Assembly: GCA_030604825.1 (NCBI GenBank)
Contig: JAUVVB010000011.1
Coordinates: 1 to 64,000 of the forward strand
Reading direction: 5' to 3'
Source of the DNA: Chloroflexota bacterium
GTDB taxonomy: Bacteria; Chloroflexota; Dehalococcoidia; E44-bin15
Length of the DNA stretch: 64,000 nt
Part shown: one piece after another, positions 452 through 56,666 of the stretch
How positions within the stretch are numbered: position 1 is the stretch's first letter
Layout of the letters: each line of letters starts with the position of its first letter
Position numbers and translations under genes: made by a program
The notes under the pieces: model-generated
Told to the model about the DNA's origin: nothing
The model's database searches: none
The model's input: only the letters and a program-made list of their open reading frames with translations

Positions 452-1027
452 TTAATCACTTTTTCCCGATTTCGGCATTCCTATCCATCTTGGAGTTCTA
501 TTCATATATTCATGATAGGCGTCTCCATATTTCTGAAGGCAGCCCTGCTCTTCAACATTGGCAAAAGCAACACAGCCAACCACGAATACGATGAAAAACA
601 ACAAGAAAATCCACGAGGCCGTGGCTATACCTAAACCCAGTAAGAAGACGAAAATAGTGACATACATCGGATGCCTTGAGTAGCGATACAGCCCTCTGGA
701 AACCGGCCCGTTAAGTGGTGTAGTAGCCCAGTTTACCAGAACCACGGTGTAGGTAATTAATCCTATCAGAGTAATAGGCAGACCTATGTAGAACCACATT
801 GTTCCTAGTCTTAACGGCAGGAAGATAGAATATACCAGGGCGGGAACTAAAAGTAGCTTTGAAGAATAGGCAACTATCTTCCCAGCCATGGAGAGTTCGC
901 TCTCTTCAGTGGAGGGTGCACCTCGCTTGATAGCGATACGGATAAAGAAAGGGAACGACAATATTAGATAAAGCATAAAAATCCAGGCATTCCATACACC
1001 TATTTCAAAAGCTGGTATAAGCGACAT
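452..1027 (-). CDS. ICMT/phospholipid-methyltransferase-type membrane protein
   Basis: A 191-residue membrane protein with four to five hydrophobic segments. The C-terminal half carries the family signature of isoprenylcysteine carboxyl methyltransferase and related small membrane methyltransferases: GLYRYSRHPMY near residues 113-123, then a paired acidic motif (VEEQ) and a YxxY stretch near the end. Members use SAM to methylate lipids, lipid-linked groups or small thiols; the substrate here cannot be told. The start is ATG with GGGGGAG 6 bases upstream. The gene has its own copy of the element at 1060-1083. Confidence 0.75.
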   Translation of the reverse strand: MSLIPAFEIGVWNAWIFMLYLILSFPFFIRIAIKRGAPSTEESELSMAGKIVAYSSKLLLVPALVYSIFLPLRLGTMWFYIGLPITLIGLITYTVVLVNWATTPLNGPVSRGLYRYSRHPMYVTIFVFLLGLGIATASWIFLLFFIVFVVGCVAFANVEEQGCLQKYGDAYHEYMNRTPRWIGMPKSGKSD

Positions 1028-45627: not shown

Positions 45628-46164
45628 GTGGAAAATTTGATGACGGCCAAGGAGGCAGCAGAATACCTCAGGTTGAACTACATGACGGTTTACAAGCTGG
45701 CTCAGAAGGGCAAGATTCCCGCCACCAAAGTAGGGGGGAATTGGCGGTTCAAGAAGGACATCCTCGATGATTGGCTGACGAAGCAGGCCGTCTCTATAGA
45801 GGGGGTGGTGCTGGTTGTGGATGACGACCCCAGGGTGAGGGAGACCCTCAGGGATATCATTTCGGGGCAGGGTTATAAGGTGGTTACTGTGGCGACGGGG
45901 GAGGAGGCCTTGGAGGAGGTGGATAAGCGGCACTTCGACCTGGTTTTTCTGGACCTGATGCTGCCCGGCATTAGCGGGTCGGAGGCCTTTGCTGCCATAA
46001 AGGAGAAGGATAAGAGGACGGTAGTGGTCATCGTCACCGGTTATGGCGATGAACCCGTAGCCATGGAGGCGATGTCCTTAGGGCCTTTGTTTCTGATTAG
46101 AAAGCCGTTCCGGGTAGAGGACGTGATCGAGGCTCTAAATGTGGCCATCAAGATAAGACGCTGA
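45628..46164 (+). CDS. Excisionase-type HTH fused to a response-regulator receiver
   Basis: A 178-residue protein. An N-terminal HTH_17/excisionase-like domain (residues 4-52, MTAKEAAEYLRLNYMTVYKL and GNWRFKKDILDDWL) joins a CheY-like receiver (residues 60-175) with acidic pair DDD, phospho-acceptor D109, T137 and K159. The usual order in response regulators is receiver first, and the DNA-binding part is normally of another family. GTG 45628 is chosen because AGGGGGT lies 9 bases upstream and a promoter lies inside the longer frame. It heads the operon that holds the kinase. Confidence 0.8.
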   Translation: MENLMTAKEAAEYLRLNYMTVYKLAQKGKIPATKVGGNWRFKKDILDDWLTKQAVSIEGVVLVVDDDPRVRETLRDIISGQGYKVVTVATGEEALEEVDKRHFDLVFLDLMLPGISGSEAFAAIKEKDKRTVVVIVTGYGDEPVAMEAMSLGPLFLIRKPFRVEDVIEALNVAIKIRR

Positions 46165-46180
46165 AACAAAGGGAGAAAGA

Positions 46181-46447
46181 GTGAGGGCGCTGGTCGCTGG
46201 AATCTTAAGCTTTCTCATCATCTACCTCTTTGACTGGGCCTCCATAAAGAGGGTCCCCGGTGGCAAGCAGGCGATAGCCTTTTTGTTTCTTGATGTGCTT
46301 TATGTATCCGTTCGGGATCGCTTTTTCTTCCCCAGGATGTTCCCCGATTATCCCCAATACCAGAGGCAAACGCCGATGCTGATTCCCACCAGGGAAAGCA
46401 TTAGTGCCTGCTTCAGCACGTTAAAGGCAAGGGAGGCCTTAAGATGA
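46181..46447 (+). CDS. Small protein with one membrane segment, unknown function
   Basis: An 88-residue protein with an N-terminal hydrophobic segment (residues 4-20) and a basic, aromatic-rich tail (RDRFFFPRMFPDYPQYQR). No family recognised. GTG start with GGGAG upstream. ATGA overlap with the GH3-type gene suggests the two products work together. Confidence 0.55.
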   Translation: MRALVAGILSFLIIYLFDWASIKRVPGGKQAIAFLFLDVLYVSVRDRFFFPRMFPDYPQYQRQTPMLIPTRESISACFSTLKAREALR

Positions 46448-48054
46448 AGGTGAGCACCGCCACGGAGCTGCTGCAGAAGGGAAAGACCGAGGACATCTGG
46501 CAGAAGTACTGTGGCTTCATCGACTTCAGCATAGAGGAATTCATGGAAATCCAGAGGCATCTACTGCTGGAACAGCTGGGGCTGCTGGCAAATTGCGAGC
46601 TGGGGCAGAGGATGATGGGGGATGCTAGGCCCACCACCGTGGAGGAGTTTCGCCTCAAGGTTCCCCTGACCAGCTATGAGGACTATGCCCCTTACCTTTT
46701 GAAAAAGAGGGGGGACGTTTTGCCCGAGAAGCCCCTTCTCTGGCAGCGGACCGCGGGGAGGTATCCGGAGTACCGCTTCAAATGGGTTCCGGTCACCGAA
46801 AGGCTCTTCAGGGAGACAGGGGCATACCTGGTTTCCTGGGCAGTCTTCTGCAGCTGCCGGGAGAGGGGTGACATCAATTTTAAGGACCACGATAAGGTCC
46901 TCTATGGCATGGCTCCTCCCCCATATACCACCGGTGCCTTGGCGCGGGTTGTTCCTGAGGAGTTCAAGCTGGATTTTCTTCCCCCCATGGAGAAGGCGGA
47001 GAGGATGCCATCTCGAAGAAGGATGGATCTGGGCGTCTCCTTAGCGCTCGCTGAAGGGTTGGACTTCGTTTTCGCCCTCTCCGGCGTGTTGGTGGGTCTA
47101 GGACAGCGGATCAGCGATGCAGCACGGGTTCTCGACCTTTCCTATGTTGCCTCTAGCCCCGGGGCGTGGCCTCGGGTGGCAAAGGCACTCCTCAAGAGCA
47201 GGCTGGCAAGGCGCCCGCTGCTTCCCAGGGACCTGTGGACGCTGAAGGGGCTGGCTTGCACTGGCGGTGACACCGCGGTCTACCGGGATAGGATAAAATA
47301 CTACTGGGGAAGAGAACCCCTGGAGGTCTATGGTGCTGCCGAGGTGGGCATCTTTGCCCTGCAGGCCTGGAACTATAAGGATATGACCTTCGTACCTACC
47401 ACTGCCTTCCTGGAGTTCATCCCCGAGGAGGAGCACCTGAGGCTCAAGGCGGACCCCGCTTATCGGCCGCGCACCCTGCTCCTTGATGAGGTGGAGGCGG
47501 GGCAGAGATATGAGCTGGTTCTTACCAGCCTCCAGGGTGGGCCCTTTGTTAGATATAGGATTGGCGATATGATAAGGGTAAATTCGCTACGCGATGAGGA
47601 GCTGGGGATAGACCTCCCCCAGATAGCAGTCGATAACCGAGTTGATGGGCTCATCGGTATCGGTGGTTATGCCCGCCTTGGCGAAAAGGCTATCGAGCGG
47701 GCCATTGAGGACACCGAGCTTGCCTGTGAGGGATGGACAGCGAGGAAGGAGGTTATTGGGGGTGAGCCTGTAGTCCACGTTTACATCGAGCTGAGGGACG
47801 GGGAGCTGACCGCTGAGGAGGCAAGGCTTGCCATTCATCGCAGCCTAAAAAGGCTCAATCATGACTATGCCGCCATGGAAGACGTGCTCGGTTTTCAGCC
47901 TGCAACGCGAGTGACCCTGCTTCCACAGGGGGCATTTGAAAGGTATAGGGCACAGGGGGGAGATTCGCCGCCGCGGATAGATGCCTCGGATGAGGTCATA
48001 AGCCGGCTTTTGGGGTTAGACAAGGAGGGAGGTTTCGGTGGTCCTCAACGCTAG
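46444..48054 (+). CDS. GH3-family acyl-adenylating enzyme
   Basis: A 536-residue protein of the GH3 superfamily, relatives of the ANL adenylases. Plant members conjugate amino acids to hormones; most bacterial ones have unknown substrates. Visible are YEDYAPYLLKK near residue 78, the P-loop-like CTGGDTAVYRDRIKYYWG near residue 275, VYGAAEVG near residue 299 and VRYRIGDMIRV near residue 364. The expected reaction is activation of a carboxylic acid with ATP and transfer to an amine or thiol. It overlaps genes on both sides in a two-component operon, hinting that it makes or removes a signal. Confidence 0.82.
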   Translation: MKVSTATELLQKGKTEDIWQKYCGFIDFSIEEFMEIQRHLLLEQLGLLANCELGQRMMGDARPTTVEEFRLKVPLTSYEDYAPYLLKKRGDVLPEKPLLWQRTAGRYPEYRFKWVPVTERLFRETGAYLVSWAVFCSCRERGDINFKDHDKVLYGMAPPPYTTGALARVVPEEFKLDFLPPMEKAERMPSRRRMDLGVSLALAEGLDFVFALSGVLVGLGQRISDAARVLDLSYVASSPGAWPRVAKALLKSRLARRPLLPRDLWTLKGLACTGGDTAVYRDRIKYYWGREPLEVYGAAEVGIFALQAWNYKDMTFVPTTAFLEFIPEEEHLRLKADPAYRPRTLLLDEVEAGQRYELVLTSLQGGPFVRYRIGDMIRVNSLRDEELGIDLPQIAVDNRVDGLIGIGGYARLGEKAIERAIEDTELACEGWTARKEVIGGEPVVHVYIELRDGELTAEEARLAIHRSLKRLNHDYAAMEDVLGFQPATRVTLLPQGAFERYRAQGGDSPPRIDASDEVISRLLGLDKEGGFGGPQR

Positions 48055-51000
48055 CACGCTGATTCCCTTAGCCGCTCTCCTCGGTTTCCTGGTGCTCATA
48101 GCGCTGGTGGCCCAGCAGAGCTTGAGGAGGAGGATCAACCTGCTCTTCGTCTGGTATACCTTTACCTTGATGGTCTGGGCCTTTTGCTTCTTCATGTTGT
48201 ACGCCAATATCCCCTTGATGAGCGCCTCCTTCTGGAGCAATATTCTGGTCGTCCCCGTCATGTTCGGCGCTGTGGCCTTCTTTCATTTTGTCCGCGTTTT
48301 CCTCCGGAAATCGGAGCCCGTTTCATGGCTTTCCTTGGGTTATGGGCTCTGCTTACTATTTGCCATTGTCGCTGCCCTGGGATATGCCGTTGAGGGGGGC
48401 TATCATACCCCGGGGACTTACCATTTCGATTTTGGCATCGCTACCTATATTATGACCCCCATTGCCCTTGCCTTCGTCGGTGCGGCGATCTTCAATTTGG
48501 TGCGGGCATTTGTCAGCACCAAAGACCCCTTTGCTCGCAACCGGGTTATCTACCCGTTAGCCGGTGTGCTTATCGCTATCCCGCTCACCATGACAAACTT
48601 CATCCCCGGGTGGAGGTGGTTCCCTGCTGGCCACATGGGCAACCTGATCCAAGCCTGCCTGCTTGCCTATGCCATCCTCATGTACCGGCTGGTGGATGTG
48701 AGCATCGTGCTGCGGCGGGGCTTCGTTTATTCCATGCTTACCGCCTTCGTTTTGGGCCTCTTCCTGGTGGTGGCCTTCATCGTTCAGGCAGCCTTCCACG
48801 CTCAAGCCGGTCAAAGCTTCTGGATCTCAGCGGTGGTCATGGCGATCATCATCACCGCGGTTTTCCAGCCGACTTATCGCTACATTCAGCGGCGGGTGGA
48901 CCTTCTTTTCCAGCGGGAGACCTATGAGTACCGGCGCACCCTGCTTGCCTCCAGCCAGAAGATGAGCGCCGTTTTGGATGTGGATGAGTTGGCTGAGTGG
49001 CTGGTGGCTGATCTCATGTGGACCATGAAGGCGGCAAAGGCGGGACTCTTCCTCTTGGATAAGGAAACCCAGCAATACATGCCGAGGGCGCTTAGGGGGT
49101 ATGATAATTCCGGGGTGGGCCGGATCCACTTCAAGGGCGATAACCCGGTGGTGATACGCCTGGCTGAGGGGAACAGCTGTCTAACTGCTGAGGACATGGA
49201 CCGCATCCCCCAGCTTCGCAGCCTGTGGAAATCGGAGCGAGGGCAGCTGGGCAAGCTGGAAACGGAGGTCCTGGTTCCGCTGAAGGTAAAGGATACCCTT
49301 ATTGGCGTGGTGGTTCTGGGCCCCAAGCGCTCTAAGGAGCGTTATTCCTTCGATGATCTGGAGCTCCTGCTCACCGTGGCCAACCAGGCGGCGGTGGCCC
49401 TGGAGAACGCCCGGCTCTATGAGGAGAGCCAGCTTAGGGCAGAGCGGCTTAAGGAATCGGAGGAGAAATACAGGGTTCTGGTGGAGGACATGAACGATGG
49501 CTATGCGGTGGTTCGGGGGGATCGCGTCCTTTTCGTCAATAAGAGAAGTGCTGAGGTCATTGGAAGACCTGCCGAGGAGATCGTGGGGCAGAGTTTCTGG
49601 CGGGTCATCGCCCCCGAGTCCATGGAGACAGTGAAGCAGCTTTATGAAGCGACCATGGCTGGGGAGACGGCGCCGGAGACGATGGAATTCACCCTCACCG
49701 CAGAAGACGGGACCAGATTACCCCTGGAGGTCAGATTTAAGGAGATCCTGTATGAGGGCAAACCTGCCTATTCCCTGATCATGAGGGATGTCTCGGCGAG
49801 AAAGAAGGCTGAGGAGGAGAAGGAGCGGCGCAGCCGGGAGATGGCTGCCCTCAGCGCCATCGCCTCCACGGTGAGCCGGACCCTGGACCTGGACGAGCTG
49901 CTGAACAATACCCTGGACAAGGTGCTGGAGCTGATGGGGGTGGAGGTGGGGGGGATATTACATCTCGATGCCTCGGGCAGGAGGCTCACCCTTCGCAGCT
50001 ATCGGGGGATATCCGAGCAAATGGCTGGTGACTTCGTCGTAATAGAACTGGATGAGGAGGAGGTGGAGCGAGCGCGGCGGTGGGTGGAGCCCACCGTGGA
50101 CATGGCGCGGGTTTTGAATGAGGAGAACCGGGCCAGGGTGGCTGCGGCTATACAGAAGGAAGGGCTTCAGATGTTCACCATGGTGCCTATTAGGGCAAAG
50201 AGGGAACCCTACGGGGCTTTGGCCATCGGCAGCCATGATCGCCGTGAGCTCACCCCAGAGGAGGTGCATTTGCTGGGCTCCATCGCTAACCAGATAGCGG
50301 TGGGCATAGAGAACGCCAGGCTTTACCAGGGGGCTAAAGAAACGGCGGAGCAGCAGGCGGTGATGGCTGAGGTAACCAGGATCCTCAGCTCCAGCCTGGA
50401 TATCAGCCAGGTTTATCAGGCGTTTACCGCAGAGATTAAGAAGCTGATCGATTTCGACCAGGCCAGCATCAATTTGGTGGAGGGGCAGAGCATAAAGGTC
50501 CTTGCCCTGTCCCAGGATGCGCCCACCGGGGTGGAGGTAGGGGGCACGCTCCCGCTTAGGGGGTCAGGCACCGAATGGCTGGTGCTCAACAAGAAGGCTC
50601 ACATTGAGGCAGACCTGGAAAAGGAGCATTGTTTTTCCTCGGACGACCGTCTTATTGCCGAGGGATTCAGGTCTACAATACGCCTCCCCTTGATAGCCAA
50701 GGATAGAGCCTTTGGCACCTTCAACCTCAGAAGCCGCCGCCCCCATGCCTTCGGGCGGGAAGAGTTAGAGGTCTTGGAGCAGATCGTGGGCCAATTAGCC
50801 ATCGCCATTGAGAATGCCACCCTATTTAACACGGTGAAGGGCCACGAGGAGCAGCTGGAGAAGGCCTACGAAGAGCTTAAGGCAGCACATGATTACATGG
50901 TGCAGTCAGAGCGGTTGAGGGCTTTGGGTGAGATGGCTGGTGGTGTAGCCCACGACTTCAACAACATCCTGGCCATCATCCTGGGCAGGACTCAGCTGGC

Positions 51001-52042
51001 TTTGGAGGATACAGGAGACGCCATGGTGAAGAGGAGCCTTGATATCATCGAACGGACCGCTGTTGATGGGGCAAAGACGGTGCGTCGCCTTCAGGACTTC
51101 GCCAGGGTGAGGGTGGATCGGGAATTGGAACGGGTTGACCTCAACGAACTGGTGAAGGGTGCCCTGCTTATGGTGGAGCCACGCCGGGCGGAGCGGCAGG
51201 TAACGGGGAGGGTGGAGATCGGCATCAGTGCTGACCTGGATAAGGTTCCCCCGGTGGAGGGAAACCCGGCGGAGTTGAGGGAGGCGCTGATGAACATCAT
51301 GTTCAATGCCATGGACGCCATGCCTGAGGGGGGCAAGATCACCGTTAAGAGCGAGCAGCAGGATGGCTGGGTTGTTCTTTCCATAAGCGACACTGGCATT
51401 GGCATGTCTGAGGAGGTGAAGCGCAGGGCGTTCGATCCCTTCTTCAGCACCAAGGGTGCCGACGGGCTGGGTCTAGGGCTTAGCGTGACCTACGGCATTA
51501 TCACCAGGCATGGGGGGAACATCGATGTGGACACCAGCCCGGGGAGGGGTTCCACCTTCTATATCAGGCTCCCCGTAGCCAGGGGCGCTCGGAGGCGGGT
51601 GCGCGCCAATAATAATAACGCCCATGCCATCAAGAACGCCAGAATACTCCTCGCCGATGACGACCCGGAGGTGGCTGAGGTTCTTGAGCTGATGCTGGGC
51701 CAGCTAGGTCACCGGGTAACGGTGGCTAGCAGTGGCCAGGAGGCTCTCACCGCCTTTTCCCCGGGGGACTACGACATGGTGATCACCGACCTGGGGATGC
51801 CTGACATCTCGGGGCGTGATGTGGCTAGGGCGATCAAGGATATAGAGCCCCAGATTCCGGTGCTGCTGGTCACCGGCTGGGGGGTTCAGCTAGACCCGCG
51901 GGAGATGAAGGAGATGGGCATTGATGGGGTGATTGCCAAGCCCTTTAGCAAAGATACCCTTTCGGCACAGATAGCAACGCTACAGGTTGCCAAGCAAAGG
52001 AGGGTTGGGAAACATGAAAGCGCAGCGGATTCTGGTCGTTGA
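48038..52042 (+). CDS. Multi-sensor hybrid histidine kinase
   Basis: A 1334-residue membrane kinase. Seven or eight membrane helices (about residues 7-290), GAF (about 310-470), PAS (about 480-600), two more GAF domains (about 605-770 and 775-930), then HisKA with the phospho-acceptor H near residue 972 (GGVAHDFNN). HATPase motifs are MNIMFNAMDAM, DTGIGM and GLGLSVTYG, and a C-terminal receiver has its Asp near residue 1250 (ITDLGMPD). GTG start with GGAGG upstream, overlapping the GH3 gene by 17 bases. Three GAF domains suggest small-molecule sensing. Confidence 0.92.
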   Translation: MVLNASTLIPLAALLGFLVLIALVAQQSLRRRINLLFVWYTFTLMVWAFCFFMLYANIPLMSASFWSNILVVPVMFGAVAFFHFVRVFLRKSEPVSWLSLGYGLCLLFAIVAALGYAVEGGYHTPGTYHFDFGIATYIMTPIALAFVGAAIFNLVRAFVSTKDPFARNRVIYPLAGVLIAIPLTMTNFIPGWRWFPAGHMGNLIQACLLAYAILMYRLVDVSIVLRRGFVYSMLTAFVLGLFLVVAFIVQAAFHAQAGQSFWISAVVMAIIITAVFQPTYRYIQRRVDLLFQRETYEYRRTLLASSQKMSAVLDVDELAEWLVADLMWTMKAAKAGLFLLDKETQQYMPRALRGYDNSGVGRIHFKGDNPVVIRLAEGNSCLTAEDMDRIPQLRSLWKSERGQLGKLETEVLVPLKVKDTLIGVVVLGPKRSKERYSFDDLELLLTVANQAAVALENARLYEESQLRAERLKESEEKYRVLVEDMNDGYAVVRGDRVLFVNKRSAEVIGRPAEEIVGQSFWRVIAPESMETVKQLYEATMAGETAPETMEFTLTAEDGTRLPLEVRFKEILYEGKPAYSLIMRDVSARKKAEEEKERRSREMAALSAIASTVSRTLDLDELLNNTLDKVLELMGVEVGGILHLDASGRRLTLRSYRGISEQMAGDFVVIELDEEEVERARRWVEPTVDMARVLNEENRARVAAAIQKEGLQMFTMVPIRAKREPYGALAIGSHDRRELTPEEVHLLGSIANQIAVGIENARLYQGAKETAEQQAVMAEVTRILSSSLDISQVYQAFTAEIKKLIDFDQASINLVEGQSIKVLALSQDAPTGVEVGGTLPLRGSGTEWLVLNKKAHIEADLEKEHCFSSDDRLIAEGFRSTIRLPLIAKDRAFGTFNLRSRRPHAFGREELEVLEQIVGQLAIAIENATLFNTVKGHEEQLEKAYEELKAAHDYMVQSERLRALGEMAGGVAHDFNNILAIILGRTQLALEDTGDAMVKRSLDIIERTAVDGAKTVRRLQDFARVRVDRELERVDLNELVKGALLMVEPRRAERQVTGRVEIGISADLDKVPPVEGNPAELREALMNIMFNAMDAMPEGGKITVKSEQQDGWVVLSISDTGIGMSEEVKRRAFDPFFSTKGADGLGLGLSVTYGIITRHGGNIDVDTSPGRGSTFYIRLPVARGARRRVRANNNNAHAIKNARILLADDDPEVAEVLELMLGQLGHRVTVASSGQEALTAFSPGDYDMVITDLGMPDISGRDVARAIKDIEPQIPVLLVTGWGVQLDPREMKEMGIDGVIAKPFSKDTLSAQIATLQVAKQRRVGKHESAADSGR

Positions 52043-53486
52043 CGATGAACCTTTCGCCCGGGAGATGATGCAGGAGATCCTGGAGCGAGAGGGCTACCAG
52101 GTGGTGGCGTTGGGCAGCGCTCAGGAGGCGCTGCACCAGGGGGGGGAGGAGCCCTTCGACCTGCTCCTTGCCGACATCGTGATGCCCCAGATGGGGGGTC
52201 TGGAGCTGGTCAGGGAATTCCAGGAGATAAGCCCTGATACCGTTCCCCTGCTGATCACGGGTTATGCCAGCATCGAAACGGCTCAGGCAGCGATGCGGCA
52301 GGGGGTTTATGACTACATCGTCAAGCCCTTTGAGAAGTCCGAGCTTTGCGCCGCGGTGACCAAGGCATTGCGCCGCAGGAGGATCATCGAGGAGGACGCT
52401 CGTCTCAAGGAGCTGTTGGGGATATATAAGGTGAGCCAGTCCATGGTCACCAGCAAGGAGCAGCGGGAGGTGCTGGAATCCGTCCTCGGCGTGGCGGTCC
52501 ACCAGACAAGGTGCAGCGGCGGCGCCATTCTCCTCTTCGATGCCTCGGGTAAGGGGCTGATGATCGCATCTGCCCTGGGGGCATGGGAGCCTGCTGCCAG
52601 GGTGGCCAATGCCATACTGGAGGTAGGAGTGGAGCCCTGGATTGCGGGGATGGACAAGCCCTTGCTCTTCACCGATGAGGAGGGACATCCCCTGTTTTCC
52701 GTGGCTGGCCATTGGTTTCCCGATAGGGAACCGCTGACCACCAAGGCAAAGGGCGTGGAGATGTTGCTCCTTCCCATAAAGAGCGAGGATAGGGTCTTTG
52801 GCCTGTTACAGGTTTTCAGGGAGGGGGAGGGGGAGCTACTTACCCGGAGCGATCTGGAGCTGTTGACCATCCTCGCCACCCAGGCGGGGGCTTCGATAAA
52901 GAGCCGCCAGCTTTTCTCCGAGCTGGAGGAGAGCTGTGTTGGTGTCCTGCAGTCCCTGGCCTCCTTGGTTGACCGGAGGGGTTTCTACACCCAGGGTCAT
53001 ATGGAAAGGGTAGCTGAAATGAGCGAGAAGCTGGGGCTGAGGCTGGGTCTTGGCGAGGAAGAGATAAAGACGCTGAAAACGGGGGCCAGCCTTCACGATA
53101 TCGGGCGCATCGGCGTCAGCGAGAGCATTCTCAACATGCCCGGTGAGCTCACGGCAAAGGAGTGGGAGCTCATCAAACTTCACCCCATAATTGGCGATGA
53201 GGTGCTGAGCCCGTTGCGGCCGCTGGCGGATGTTCGCTATATTGTAAGGCATCACCACGAGCGCCTTGATGCAAGTGGCTATCCCGATGGCCTTTCCGGG
53301 GAGGAGATAACCCCGGTCCTAGGGGTGGTTTCGCTGTGCGATGCCTACGATGCCATGACCTCGCCCCGCCCTTGGCGCCCTGCCCTTCCTCGGGACGAAG
53401 CCATCACCATCTTGCTCCAGGAGAGGGAAACGAAGTTCGATTCCCAGATAACGGAGACCTTTGTGGGCATGCTGAACGAGGAGTAA
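52014..53486 (+). CDS. Response regulator with GAF-like and HD-GYP domains
   Basis: A 490-residue output protein. Receiver (residues 1-120, VVDDEP start, DLLLADIVMP with the phospho-acceptor Asp, KPF), a GAF-like middle (about 150-310), and a C-terminal HD-GYP phosphodiesterase with HD at 361-362 (HDIGRIGV) and HHERLDASGYPDGL. It should degrade cyclic-di-GMP or a related dinucleotide when phosphorylated. ATG 52014 lies inside the end of the kinase gene (29-base overlap), so the two are tightly coupled. Confidence 0.92.
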   Translation: MKAQRILVVDDEPFAREMMQEILEREGYQVVALGSAQEALHQGGEEPFDLLLADIVMPQMGGLELVREFQEISPDTVPLLITGYASIETAQAAMRQGVYDYIVKPFEKSELCAAVTKALRRRRIIEEDARLKELLGIYKVSQSMVTSKEQREVLESVLGVAVHQTRCSGGAILLFDASGKGLMIASALGAWEPAARVANAILEVGVEPWIAGMDKPLLFTDEEGHPLFSVAGHWFPDREPLTTKAKGVEMLLLPIKSEDRVFGLLQVFREGEGELLTRSDLELLTILATQAGASIKSRQLFSELEESCVGVLQSLASLVDRRGFYTQGHMERVAEMSEKLGLRLGLGEEEIKTLKTGASLHDIGRIGVSESILNMPGELTAKEWELIKLHPIIGDEVLSPLRPLADVRYIVRHHHERLDASGYPDGLSGEEITPVLGVVSLCDAYDAMTSPRPWRPALPRDEAITILLQERETKFDSQITETFVGMLNEE

Positions 53487-53490
53487 TCCG

Positions 53491-54666
53491 CTAAAGCAGC
53501 GAGGGTATGTCCTTGGAGGCGTCTGCGATCTCCTTGAGCTTCTGCTCCGCTTCCTTCTCTCTCTGCCTTATCATGGGGATGGAGTCCTTCAATTTGTAAT
53601 AGAACCCCCTCACCCTTTCCACGTCGCTGAGCTGGGAAAGGACGAGGGTTACACTGACCCCTCCCTTTTCCCTGGGGTAATCGCCGCTTCTGATGAGCGC
53701 CTCCTCCGCCAACTCCTTCAAATAATCGCCGATCTCCTTGACGATATCCAGATTCATTTCCTTTGAGGGAGCGGAGAGCAGATAAAGGGCGCTTCCGGCA
53801 TCCTTTGGCCGGCAGCCAACGGAGAGCTCGCTCAACGCCTCATCCATTGCCTCGATCCCCTTGTGGGTCTCGGTTCCCTTTTTGCGGAAGTGGCGTCTCC
53901 TTTCGAAGGGGAACCGGAACAGCGGTAGTGGAGACATGCCGTGGCCGATCACCGTCCATCCACCCAGGGTCTGGATGATATCGCCGGCATCAATTATCCT
54001 GGCCCCGATGTGCTTTCTCTTCTTCTCCTCGCCAGCGCAGAGAAGATTGTAGAAGGGCTCCACTATCTGCTGATTGATCATCTGCATATTGCCGATGAGG
54101 CTTGCGTCCTTCCTCACGTACCGTTGATTGTCCATCAGGAAAACAGCATCTGCCACCTCGTATATGGTTTTAAGGCAGGTGGCGGTATTGTAAAAGCACC
54201 TTTCCTCGGTGTTTTCCTCGTGTTCAAAGGGGAGGACAACCAGGGCGTAGACCGGCTTGTCGAGGTACCTCTCCTTGATGGCCTCGGTAAGTACGGGAAG
54301 CCCCCCGGAGCCGGTCCCCCCGGCGGCGGCGGCAATGAGGAGGAAGGCATCGGTCTCCCAGAATCGCTTCGTCGTTCTTATGGCATCGACGACCTTATCG
54401 CTTCCCTCCCTGGCTATCTCGGCACCCAGCTCGTTTATCTTGCCCACGCCATGACCGCCGGTCTTTCGTCCCCCGAGCATGATTCGATGCTGGAAATCGC
54501 TGCGTACCGCCCTCAGTCCGGAAAGGTCAGCCTCATCGGTGTTTACGGCAAAGGTGCCGGTTATTATCTCCAGCCCTCGCTGACATGACGCCCTTTTGCC
54601 GATGAGGGCAAACTCGTCGGCGATTCTCCCTCCGCACTGCCCCAGTCCCACCACAACTAACTTCAT
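53491..54666 (-). CDS. Tubulin/FtsZ-superfamily GTPase, CetZ-like
   Basis: A 391-residue protein with the tubulin signature GGTGSGG at residues 116-122 and the glycine-rich VGLGQCGGRIADEF start. It differs strongly from FtsZ in length distribution and lacks FtsZ's C-terminal binding tail; several features recall archaeal CetZ and related bacterial tubulin-like proteins. GTP-driven filaments for shape or organelle positioning are the likely role, but that is inference. A charged helix closes the protein (MIRQREKEAEQKLKEIAD). AAGGAGGTG sits 5 bases before the ATG, and two promoters lie upstream. Confidence 0.82.
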   Translation of the reverse strand: MKLVVVGLGQCGGRIADEFALIGKRASCQRGLEIITGTFAVNTDEADLSGLRAVRSDFQHRIMLGGRKTGGHGVGKINELGAEIAREGSDKVVDAIRTTKRFWETDAFLLIAAAAGGTGSGGLPVLTEAIKERYLDKPVYALVVLPFEHEENTEERCFYNTATCLKTIYEVADAVFLMDNQRYVRKDASLIGNMQMINQQIVEPFYNLLCAGEEKKRKHIGARIIDAGDIIQTLGGWTVIGHGMSPLPLFRFPFERRRHFRKKGTETHKGIEAMDEALSELSVGCRPKDAGSALYLLSAPSKEMNLDIVKEIGDYLKELAEEALIRSGDYPREKGGVSVTLVLSQLSDVERVRGFYYKLKDSIPMIRQREKEAEQKLKEIADASKDIPSLL

Positions 54667-54727
54667 TTTCCACCTCCTTTTCCTCGCAGAAAGCCAAGAT
54701 TTCCACCAATGGCTTTGGCTACCTCAA

Positions 54728-54757
54728 CTTATAAAGGATACACCTCCTCCCTGTCAA
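54728..54757 (-). promoter_or_regulatory. Proximal promoter of the tubulin-like gene
   Basis: Minus strand TTGACA (54757-54752), an 18-base spacer and TATAAG (54733-54728). Confidence 0.55.
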
Positions 54758-54771
54758 GCCCGATTGAAAAC

Positions 54772-54800
54772 ATATTATCGCAAAACCTCCCCCACGTCAA
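54772..54800 (-). promoter_or_regulatory. Distal promoter of the tubulin-like gene
   Basis: Minus strand TTGACG (54800-54795), a 17-base spacer and TAATAT (54777-54772). Tandem with the proximal promoter 43 bases downstream. Confidence 0.55.
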
Positions 54801-54840
54801 GGAAGGCGAAAATGGTACCTTTACCCCCCTCCCTTTGTGC

Positions 54841-54846
54841 TATAAT
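54841..54846 (+). promoter_or_regulatory. Possible -10 of the GalT-like gene
   Basis: A perfect TATAAT 25 bases upstream of the ATG at 54872, but no good -35 at the standard distance. It may need an activator or be weak. Confidence 0.35.
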
Positions 54847-54871
54847 CTTGCTTGCTCTAGGGGGTGTTTCG

Positions 54872-55903
54872 ATGGAATTTCGAAGGGAAATGAAAAGCAT
54901 GGAGCTCCTGAGCCCTCTAGCCGGGTTTGAAAGGGAGCTTAAATGGGTGGAGTACCGGGAGGACCCGTTGACCGCATGCCAGAGCAGGATAAATGTGGCC
55001 AGGGTGGGAAGGGAGAGGCAGGCGCAAGTGGGGGTGGACCTCACTGGGGTGATAGAGGGGACGAGGGGGGATTGCCTTTTCTGCCCCCACAACATCGAGC
55101 AGAGGACGCCCCGATTCCCCCCCGAGCTCTATCCCCAGGGCAGGATAAAGAGGGGGGAGTGCCTCGTCTTCCCCAACCTGTTTCCCTTCGCCCAGTACCA
55201 CGCCGTGGGAACCTTAACCCGGGAGCACTTTTTGGATCTGGATGAGTTCACCCCTGAAATGCTGGTGGATAATATCATGGCATCAAGGGATTTCATAGCC
55301 TTGGTGCACCAAAGGGACCAGGGGGCGAAATGGCCGATGTGGATATGGAATCATCTGCCCCCCAGCGCCGCCAGCATAATACATCCCCATGTTCAGATAC
55401 TGGTGGATGAAGCGCCTTCCCCGGAGCTGAGCAGGCTCTTGAGGAGGAGCGAGGAATATTTTGCCGCCCGGGGCAGGAACTACTGGCAGGATCTGGTGGA
55501 GGAGGAGAGGGAGCTGGGCCAGAGGTACATCGCGGAGAACGATTCGCTGGCTGTCCTGGCAAGCTATGCCCCCAGAGGGAATCGGGAGGTTCAGCTAATA
55601 TTCAAGGGGCTGAGCAACCTCGCCGATCTGGGGGAGGGGCAGGCAATGGATTTTGCCACCTCGGTGGTGAAAATACTGCGCTGCTATAAGGGGATGGGGG
55701 TGAACTCCTTCAACCTGATCACCTATTCTGCACCCTCTGGGGAGAGGCTGGACTATTATTGGCTCAGCGCCAGGATGATCTCCCGCCCCTTCTTCCAGCC
55801 CTTCTACACCAACGATACCGGCTTCATGGAGAGGTTTCACGATATCTGGGTGATCGAAACCCTGCCTGAGGATGTGGCCGCCCAGCTGAGGAAGGGCTTT
55901 TGA
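54872..55903 (+). CDS. GalT-like nucleotidyltransferase (HIT superfamily)
   Basis: A 343-residue protein with the galactose-1-phosphate uridylyltransferase layout. A zinc-type CLFCPHN motif lies near residue 67 and the catalytic IIHPHVQI (HPHxQ) near residue 168. It lacks the usual FKNxG stretch before the histidines (here WNHLPPSAAS), so the substrate may be another nucleotide sugar or a dinucleoside polyphosphate. ATG 54872 follows GGGGGTG; the open frame upstream overlaps regulatory DNA. Its 3' end lies 4 bases from the convergent crotonase. Confidence 0.75.
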   Translation: MEFRREMKSMELLSPLAGFERELKWVEYREDPLTACQSRINVARVGRERQAQVGVDLTGVIEGTRGDCLFCPHNIEQRTPRFPPELYPQGRIKRGECLVFPNLFPFAQYHAVGTLTREHFLDLDEFTPEMLVDNIMASRDFIALVHQRDQGAKWPMWIWNHLPPSAASIIHPHVQILVDEAPSPELSRLLRRSEEYFAARGRNYWQDLVEEERELGQRYIAENDSLAVLASYAPRGNREVQLIFKGLSNLADLGEGQAMDFATSVVKILRCYKGMGVNSFNLITYSAPSGERLDYYWLSARMISRPFFQPFYTNDTGFMERFHDIWVIETLPEDVAAQLRKGF

Positions 55904-55907
55904 GCTA

Positions 55908-56666
55908 TCACTTCCCCTTCCATACTGGGGGTCTGCGCTCCACAAAGGCCCTCGCCCCCTCTATCATGTCCTCGCTGTTAAGGGCAGGAGCTGCAATCTC
56001 CCATCCTTCTTGCGTCTGGCCCAGGGTGGGGGGCAGGCTCTTATACACCACCTCTTTGGTGGCCCTCACTGCCAGGGGGGCATTCTGGCACAGCCGTTGG
56101 GCAAAGGCAGCGGCCGCTGGCATGAGCTCCTCAGCGGGGACCACCCGGTGGACGAATCCGATCTCATAGGCCCTTTGGGCGCTGATGCGCTCCCCGGTGA
56201 GCAGCATCTCCAAAGCCAGCCCCAGGGTCATATGGTGGATTACATGGGCTACGGGGATAGCGGGCACCCCCACCGTAACCTCCGATATGGCGAACTGGGC
56301 ATCCTGGCTGGCGATCCTGAAATCGCATTCCATGGCCAGAACGAAGCCCCCGGCTAGGGCATGCCCCCTGACGGCGGCAATGGTTGGCTTCCACACCCCC
56401 AGAGAGGTGGGACGGGTACCCCTGGTCTGTTCCCCCTCCTTGAAGAAAGTCCCCTGAGCGGCCCGCTCCTTCAGGTCAAGCCCGGCGCAGAACGTCGGTC
56501 CCGCCCCGCTGAGGATGGCTACCCAGGCATCGTCATCATCGCGGAATCTTATCCACGCCTTCTCCAGTTCCTCCAGGAGCTCATAGCTGAGGGCGTTCCT
56601 CGCCTCGGGGCGATTCAGGGTGATATAGGCGATCCTTTCCTTCCTCTCGTAGAGCAGCACGGGCAT
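55908..56666 (-). CDS. Crotonase-family enzyme (enoyl-CoA hydratase/isomerase)
   Basis: A 252-residue crotonase-fold protein. Oxyanion-hole motifs are present around FCAGLDLKE (near residue 60) and GHALAGGF (near residue 103). Of the two catalytic glutamates of typical hydratases, the first position reads Val (GGFVLAME), while the second is kept (FAISEVTVG). It may therefore be an isomerase or another crotonase rather than a standard hydratase. Monocistronic or coupled to the IMP-dehydrogenase-like gene 26 bases upstream. Confidence 0.85.
   Translation of the reverse strand: MPVLLYERKERIAYITLNRPEARNALSYELLEELEKAWIRFRDDDDAWVAILSGAGPTFCAGLDLKERAAQGTFFKEGEQTRGTRPTSLGVWKPTIAAVRGHALAGGFVLAMECDFRIASQDAQFAISEVTVGVPAIPVAHVIHHMTLGLALEMLLTGERISAQRAYEIGFVHRVVPAEELMPAAAAFAQRLCQNAPLAVRATKEVVYKSLPPTLGQTQEGWEIAAPALNSEDMIEGARAFVERRPPVWKGK

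Follow-up and report, generated by a model that had tools for sequence, protein, structure and literature searches.

A GH3-family enzyme and a 7TM receptor retained together across the Dehalococcoidia, with a possible role in small-molecule signalling

The window analysed here is a stretch of 64,000 nucleotides from a Chloroflexota genome (positions 1-64,000, forward strand, of contig JAUVVB010000011.1, assembly GCA_030604825.1), and it carries an operon at 45628-53486 (+) in which the gene for a GH3-family enzyme (46444-48054, +) is followed by that for a hybrid histidine kinase (48038-52042, +) with a seven-transmembrane (7TM) sensor domain (48038-48940, +). GH3 and one clade of 7TM receptor form a unit that is conserved across the class Dehalococcoidia. 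By analogy with systems in which a small-molecule synthase is paired with its receptor, we propose, at a probability of roughly 0.58, that the GH3 enzyme makes an N-acyl amino-acid-like lipid amide, which the 7TM receptor senses and relays to cyclic di-GMP (c-di-GMP) or gene control. The broader proposition, that the Dehalococcoidia possess an undescribed class of small-molecule signalling with tailored GH3-made N-acyl amides, dedicated 7TM receptors and interchangeable kinase or c-di-GMP outputs, we would put at about even odds.

Distribution of the GH3-receptor pair

Of 393 genomes sampled from the class, 111 contain GH3, and the named relatives that carry it are mostly labelled Dehalococcoidia or Chloroflexota; an alignment-based scan of genome contigs gave 80 GH3 loci, whereas a scan with a single-protein query matched none. 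At 75 of the 85 non-redundant GH3 loci that have enough downstream sequence, one of the next three same-strand genes encodes a receptor with this 7TM domain, and these linked pairs span 36 families and 57 genera. Strong 7TM matches, defined as at least 150 bits to the profile of the GH3-linked domain, were found in 27 of 27 GH3-containing genomes and in two of 37 that lack GH3 (Fisher 5e-16, uncorrected for kinship). The GH3 and 7TM trees agree (Mantel r 0.88), and at locus L160 the linkage has outlasted a rearrangement that gives the order methyltransferase-receptor-GH3. Both genes are under purifying selection, with ratios of non-synonymous to synonymous substitution (dN/dS) of 0.03-0.04 in a Dehalococcoides-like pair and, within the window's family, of 0.15 and 0.35; GH3 itself gives 0.15 when the congeneric L041 and L042 are compared. 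Matches to reductive dehalogenases number 19-28 in each of three complete genomes with GH3 that belong to a single genus, and GH3 is thus present in types like the cultured organohalide respirers.

Two GH3 genes are accompanied by two receptors in four of the 27 genomes (G192, G334, G364 and G376) and tandem GH3-receptor pairs occur at L093 and L099, as if a single genome held two signal-receptor pairs. Tandem GH3 genes were also seen at L088, L168, L184 and L191. Four of the ten unlinked loci are Dehalogenimonas-like, and there the receptor gene sits some 3-6 kb from GH3 on the opposite strand; at two others a GAF-kinase gene adjoins GH3 and a 7TM domain is undetectable. In several Dehalogenimonas-like genomes (G151, G131 and G093, with loci L212, L214 and L215, and also G191) the receptor frame is 1113-1122 aa long, contains two consecutive 7TM domains and lies 3-5 kb from GH3 on the opposite strand. 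In the two genomes that lack GH3, the receptor of the GH3-linked type is encoded beside a methyltransferase gene (L218) and downstream of LeuA-like and MmgE/PrpD genes (L217). Some metagenome-assembled genomes are labelled as lying outside the Chloroflexota (Spirochaetota for L190, Clostridia for L160, Deltaproteobacteria for L179 and L192, Aenigmatarchaeota for L128); these labels are unverified and were not used to argue for spread across phyla.

The receptor and its outputs

The window receptor is a protein of 1334 aa with the Pfam architecture 7TM-GAF-PAS-GAF-GAF-HisKA-HATPase-receiver (REC), in which the key residues H972, N1090 and D1118 and the REC aspartate D1251 are present. Its sensor, which is the part kept beside GH3 across the class, was delimited from the HisKA_7TM family (PF16927, whose cut-off it passes), our alignments A1 and A4, the predicted model and its co-distribution. 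The model (mean predicted local distance difference test, pLDDT, 87.4) has seven helices, two extra helices and a β-hairpin after helix 4. A sequence search of the PDB with the sensor gave no match at E<0.1; Foldseek comparison of the model with the PDB returned weak matches resembling G-protein-coupled receptors (best E 2.6e-3), which we do not take as evidence of homology.

The output attached to this sensor varies. It is GGDEF-HD-GYP at 44 of the 75 linked loci, HisKA with or without REC at 23 and HisKA_3 at four, and is incomplete or ambiguous at the remainder. The GH3 tree and the 7TM tree each call for at least three changes of output, the pair staying together throughout. It is thus the 7TM domain, rather than the output, that is retained with GH3. 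The GGDEF-HD-GYP receptors have an intact GGDEF or GGEEF motif in 43 of 44 cases and HDxGK in all 44. Partner regulators differ too: the gene for a small protein, often together with one for a winged HTH_45 protein, is found with 36 of the 46 pairs of GGDEF-HD-GYP type and with none of the 25 pairs of HisKA type, and a fusion of an excisionase-type helix-turn-helix domain with a receiver (HTH17-REC) accompanies seven of the 25 HisKA-type pairs and none of the 46 others. The small protein (about 110-140 aa; for example, L051:7664-8383) has no Pfam match and looks ribbon-helix-helix-like in our reading of its sequence; its gene lies upstream at 52 of 100 GH3 loci, and often (35 loci) the HTH_45 gene precedes it.

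The GH3 enzyme

GH3 proteins are known as plant enzymes that conjugate hormones and thereby control hormone signals. The window protein (536 aa) is GH3-family acyl-acid amido synthetase-like by its Pfam matches and its predicted fold. It matches the GH3 N-terminal domain (PF03321, 6e-10, 39.2 bits) and GH3_M (PF23571, 1e-13, 51.2 bits), for both of which the curated cut-off is 23.6 bits, and its AlphaFold model (pLDDT 91.7) has the GH3 fold according to Foldseek, the best matches being the putative ligase BT_0428 of Bacteroides and plant acyl-acid amido synthetases (GH3.6, GH3.5, GH3.12 and JAR1; E about 1e-20, TM-score about 0.6). The GH3 profile also matches the plant structures by sequence. 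Of the three nucleotide motifs of the plant enzymes, II (YGAAE) and III (YRIGD) are present and motif I is recognizable but altered to RTAGR, with TAG for TSG; identity to the plant structures is 14-18 %, and the partner genes are bacterial. The motif I position is serine in 58 of 79 family members and threonine, valine, alanine or isoleucine in most others. Given that valine, threonine and isoleucine also occur there, the window enzyme may or may not be active.

In bacteria the GH3 protein OlsH joins a free fatty acid to ornithine, giving N-acyl ornithine with the use of ATP and Mg2+, and the roles of other bacterial GH3 proteins are stated to be open (PMC12493201). The window protein was considered as an OlsH and rejected, its score being 28.4 bits against an NCBIfam equivalog cut-off of 620.

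Methyltransferases and other tailoring enzymes

The sequence-only reading of the window, made before this analysis, described the operon genes as overlapping or nearly touching. The spacings are overlaps of 4, 17 and 29 bp and a gap of 16 bp; a short open reading frame (ORF) for 88 aa at 46181-46447 (+), which fills the 279-bp interval between the regulator and GH3 genes, had been missed. It begins 16 bp after the regulator gene and overlaps GH3 by 4 bp. It is not an ordinary new gene but the relic of one for a PEMT/ICMT-like membrane methyltransferase that relatives carry intact in this position: against intact homologues of L033, L044, L047, L051 and L053, its product matches about 30 residues at the N-terminus and about 58 at the C-terminus, the catalytic middle being missing (profile match E=5e-18, covering the last 55 positions). 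At L044, an order-level neighbour, an intact methyltransferase gene lies between HTH17-REC and GH3, and a search of the rest of the window's assembly, which is 91 % complete, gave no close copy that is intact; the simplest reading is that the enzyme was lost in the window's lineage. A distant PEMT/ICMT-like methyltransferase, a weak homologue (E=5e-6 to profile A5), is encoded at 476-703 (-).

In many lineages a methyltransferase adjoins GH3 or is fused to it (PEMT-GH3 at L073, L074, L076, L129, L147 and L171), and the enzymes around GH3 vary among PEMT-like and class-I S-adenosylmethionine methyltransferases, ketosynthase, ThiF-like and B12-radical-SAM proteins; the methyltransferase is both dispensable and replaceable. 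Ketosynthase, ThiF-like or B12-binding radical-SAM enzymes are encoded between GH3 and the receptor at L127:4762-6036, L155:8690-9496, L074:7506-9044 and L171:3354-5823. Such insertions suggest lineage-specific tailoring of the GH3 product. An OlsI-type α/β-hydrolase O-acyltransferase was not seen among the window operon genes or among the identified neighbours in relatives, many neighbours being unidentified.

Organization of the window operon

The first gene (45628-46164, +) encodes the HTH17-REC regulator of 178 aa (HTH_17, PF12728, 2e-16; Response_reg, PF00072, 5e-28). It is a single uninterrupted frame from a GTG at 45628 to the stop at 46164, the phospho-acceptor is D109 as the sequence-only reading had it, and many members of the class have co-linear homologues of full length (38-74 % identity over query residues ~2-178); these observations rule out an annotation artefact joining two genes. 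In many class members the fusion is also found unlinked to GH3. A plasmid search did not reveal it, in that among the matches listed none starts before query residue 21. The GH3 and kinase genes overlap by 17 bp, and the kinase gene overlaps by 29 bp the last gene (52014-53486, +), which starts at an ATG at 52014 with AGGAGGG immediately 5' to it and encodes a response regulator of 490 aa with the Pfam architecture REC-GAF-HD_5. In this protein the receiver aspartate D54 and the GYP motif are present. Phosphodiesterase activity is doubtful, because HDxGK is replaced by HDIGR here and by HDIGL, HDIGL and HDVGM in the nearest relatives L041-L043.

The four proteins that had been named in the operon are all confirmed at the stated place and on the stated strand, and all four genes recur in identical order at the same-family loci L041, L042, L043 and L046, the first three of which lack the methyltransferase. 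A flanking CetZ-like gene is common to L041-L043 and a flanking ETF gene to L041 and L046. In the relative G001, only 45 aa of GH3 remain and there is no 7TM domain; HTH17-REC and a PAS-kinase-REC core are retained. As a class-wide unit the four-gene set is rejected, as only GH3 and the 7TM domain persist; the emphasis earlier placed on the HTH-first fusion and the HD-GYP protein fell on lineage additions, and the 7TM sensor, the methyltransferase slot and the exchangeability of the sensor output had been overlooked.

Convergent with the operon is a CetZ-like tubulin/FtsZ homologue (PF00091, PF21011) at 53491-54666 (-), which has the same position in L041-L043 and lies beside the reduced operon in L060/L219. 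Next to it, at 54596-55903 (+), is a 435-aa ORF with no Pfam match and weak similarity in its C-terminal third to galactose-1-phosphate uridylyltransferase (GalT); L042 and L043 keep this ORF next to their CetZ-like genes.

Relationship to known systems

The organization is reminiscent of the diffusible signal factor (DSF) systems, in which the gene for a fatty-signal synthase lies beside that for its receptor, which may be a membrane-bound hybrid kinase working with a REC-HD-GYP protein or may itself be a c-di-GMP enzyme; a receptor of the second kind, RpfR, has the make-up PAS-GGDEF-EAL. The synthase RpfF is paired with the hybrid membrane kinase RpfC and the REC-HD-GYP protein RpfG in Xanthomonas (PMC9864630) and alternatively with RpfR in Burkholderia and Cronobacter (PMC4698668). 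One synthase with two receptor designs is a precedent for GH3 with either a kinase or a GGDEF-HD-GYP receptor, and the window operon has both a hybrid membrane kinase (48038-52042) and a REC-HD-GYP partner (52014-53486). Nevertheless, the unit is not a member of the DSF system, because its synthase is GH3: RpfF belongs to the enoyl-CoA hydratase family, no such gene occupies the synthase slot of the operon, and the window's enoyl-CoA hydratase family gene (55908-56666) lies on the opposite strand outside it. The HisKA_7TM-type sensor common to all outputs is a further difference.

The OlsH/OlsG/OlsI pathway of Singulisphaera acidiphila resembles the unit in having a GH3-like enzyme and an N-methyltransferase encoded in one operon, of which the product is a bulk membrane lipid (PMC12493201); the ols operon, however, has no receptor or kinase gene. 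The sensor is of the HisKA_7TM kind seen in histidine kinases and GGDEF proteins, but it belongs to a separate clade that hardly occurs except in company with GH3. We note that a possible role as signals in bacteria has been discussed for N-acylated tyrosines, the stieleriacines (PMC7293339).

Proposed pathway and alternatives

In the pathway that we favour, GH3 would adenylate a carboxylic acid and couple it to an amine, the probable partners being a fatty acid and an amino acid. The adjacent membrane or class-I methyltransferase would modify the product in many lineages, as other enzymes sometimes would too. The resulting lipid-like amide would be sensed by the membrane-embedded 7TM domain of the adjoining receptor, with an output that depends on the lineage, either c-di-GMP turnover by GGDEF-HD-GYP or a histidine kinase acting on REC-HD-GYP proteins, DNA-binding regulators or both. 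In the window the GH3 product would act through H972 of the 7TM kinase on D1251 of its own receiver, from which phosphotransfer would reach D109 of HTH17-REC, affecting transcription, and D54 of the REC-GAF-HD-GYP protein. Sequence, linkage, co-distribution, domain swaps, folds and most of the motifs are observed; the substrate, the identity of the ligand, the direction in which the signal runs and its possible passage out of the cell are inferred. That a small-molecule conjugate may be the signal or the target had been suggested from the window alone, and the linkage of GH3 to a 7TM receptor across 36 families strengthens the idea that a GH3-made conjugate is the signal. That most outputs are c-di-GMP enzymes and not transcription factors for the GH3 gene fits a position of GH3 upstream of the receptor, and the joint absence of most of GH3 and of the 7TM domain from G001, where the kinase core is kept, counts for a synthase-receptor relationship.

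Several observations weigh on the other side. No exporter belongs to the module, two genomes hold the receptor without GH3, and no 7TM domain was found nearby at six of the ten unlinked loci. Vertical descent could account in part for the linkage and for the agreement of the trees. In the window itself, GH3 has alanine at the motif I position where OlsH requires serine, and the lysine of HDxGK is gone from the HD-GYP protein. These last two features, together with the methyltransferase relic, are what would be expected if the function of the unit were lost or altered in the window's lineage, and L041-L043 share the departure from HDxGK. This explanation, which concerns the window copy only and is compatible with a signalling role elsewhere, seems to us unlikely: the window GH3 is intact and 67-69 % identical to those of L041 and L042, between which its dN/dS of 0.15 was obtained, and L041-L043 have kept all four genes while also lacking the methyltransferase.

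The main rival to signalling is aminolipid homeostasis, in which GH3 and the methyltransferase would make an abundant membrane aminolipid, the 7TM protein would gauge the state of the membrane or the level of the lipid, and there would be no intercellular signal. The precedent of OlsH, a GH3 enzyme that shares its operon with an N-methyltransferase and makes a bulk membrane lipid (PMC12493201), argues for it, as do the phospholipid-methyltransferase-type enzyme adjoining GH3 and the embedding of the sensor in the membrane in our model. We nevertheless regard it as a possible but distinctly weaker explanation, as the OlsH score is 28 bits against the cut-off of 620, the O-acyltransferase was not seen beside GH3 in the loci examined, the methyltransferase can be dispensed with or replaced and the receptor cannot, and swappable c-di-GMP outputs with intact motifs suit signalling better. 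Ordinary co-regulation, with the 7TM protein sensing an unrelated environmental cue and GH3 as one target gene, would agree with the DNA-binding HTH17-REC regulator that heads the operon in the window and some of its kin. It appears improbable, in that the output of most receptors, GGDEF-HD-GYP, has no promoter-binding ability of its own, genomes without GH3 hardly ever have the receptor clade, although HTH17-REC does occur without GH3, and it is the sensor and not the output that has stayed with GH3.

Significance

In the literature searched, which subscription journals lay largely outside, no GH3-receptor or GH3-kinase signalling pair is described, so that the earlier statement that no system of this make-up is known stands within that scope, and no chemical signalling system turned up for the Dehalococcoidia. 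The pair offers a testable answer to the question of what bacterial GH3 proteins do in one large group and, because it is present in complete Dehalococcoides- and Dehalogenimonas-like genomes rich in reductive-dehalogenase (rdhA) genes, one that is testable in cultured relatives. The Dehalococcoides/Dehalogenimonas group detoxifies chlorinated solvents, and the GH3-receptor pair could bear on the aggregation or consortium life of such cells.

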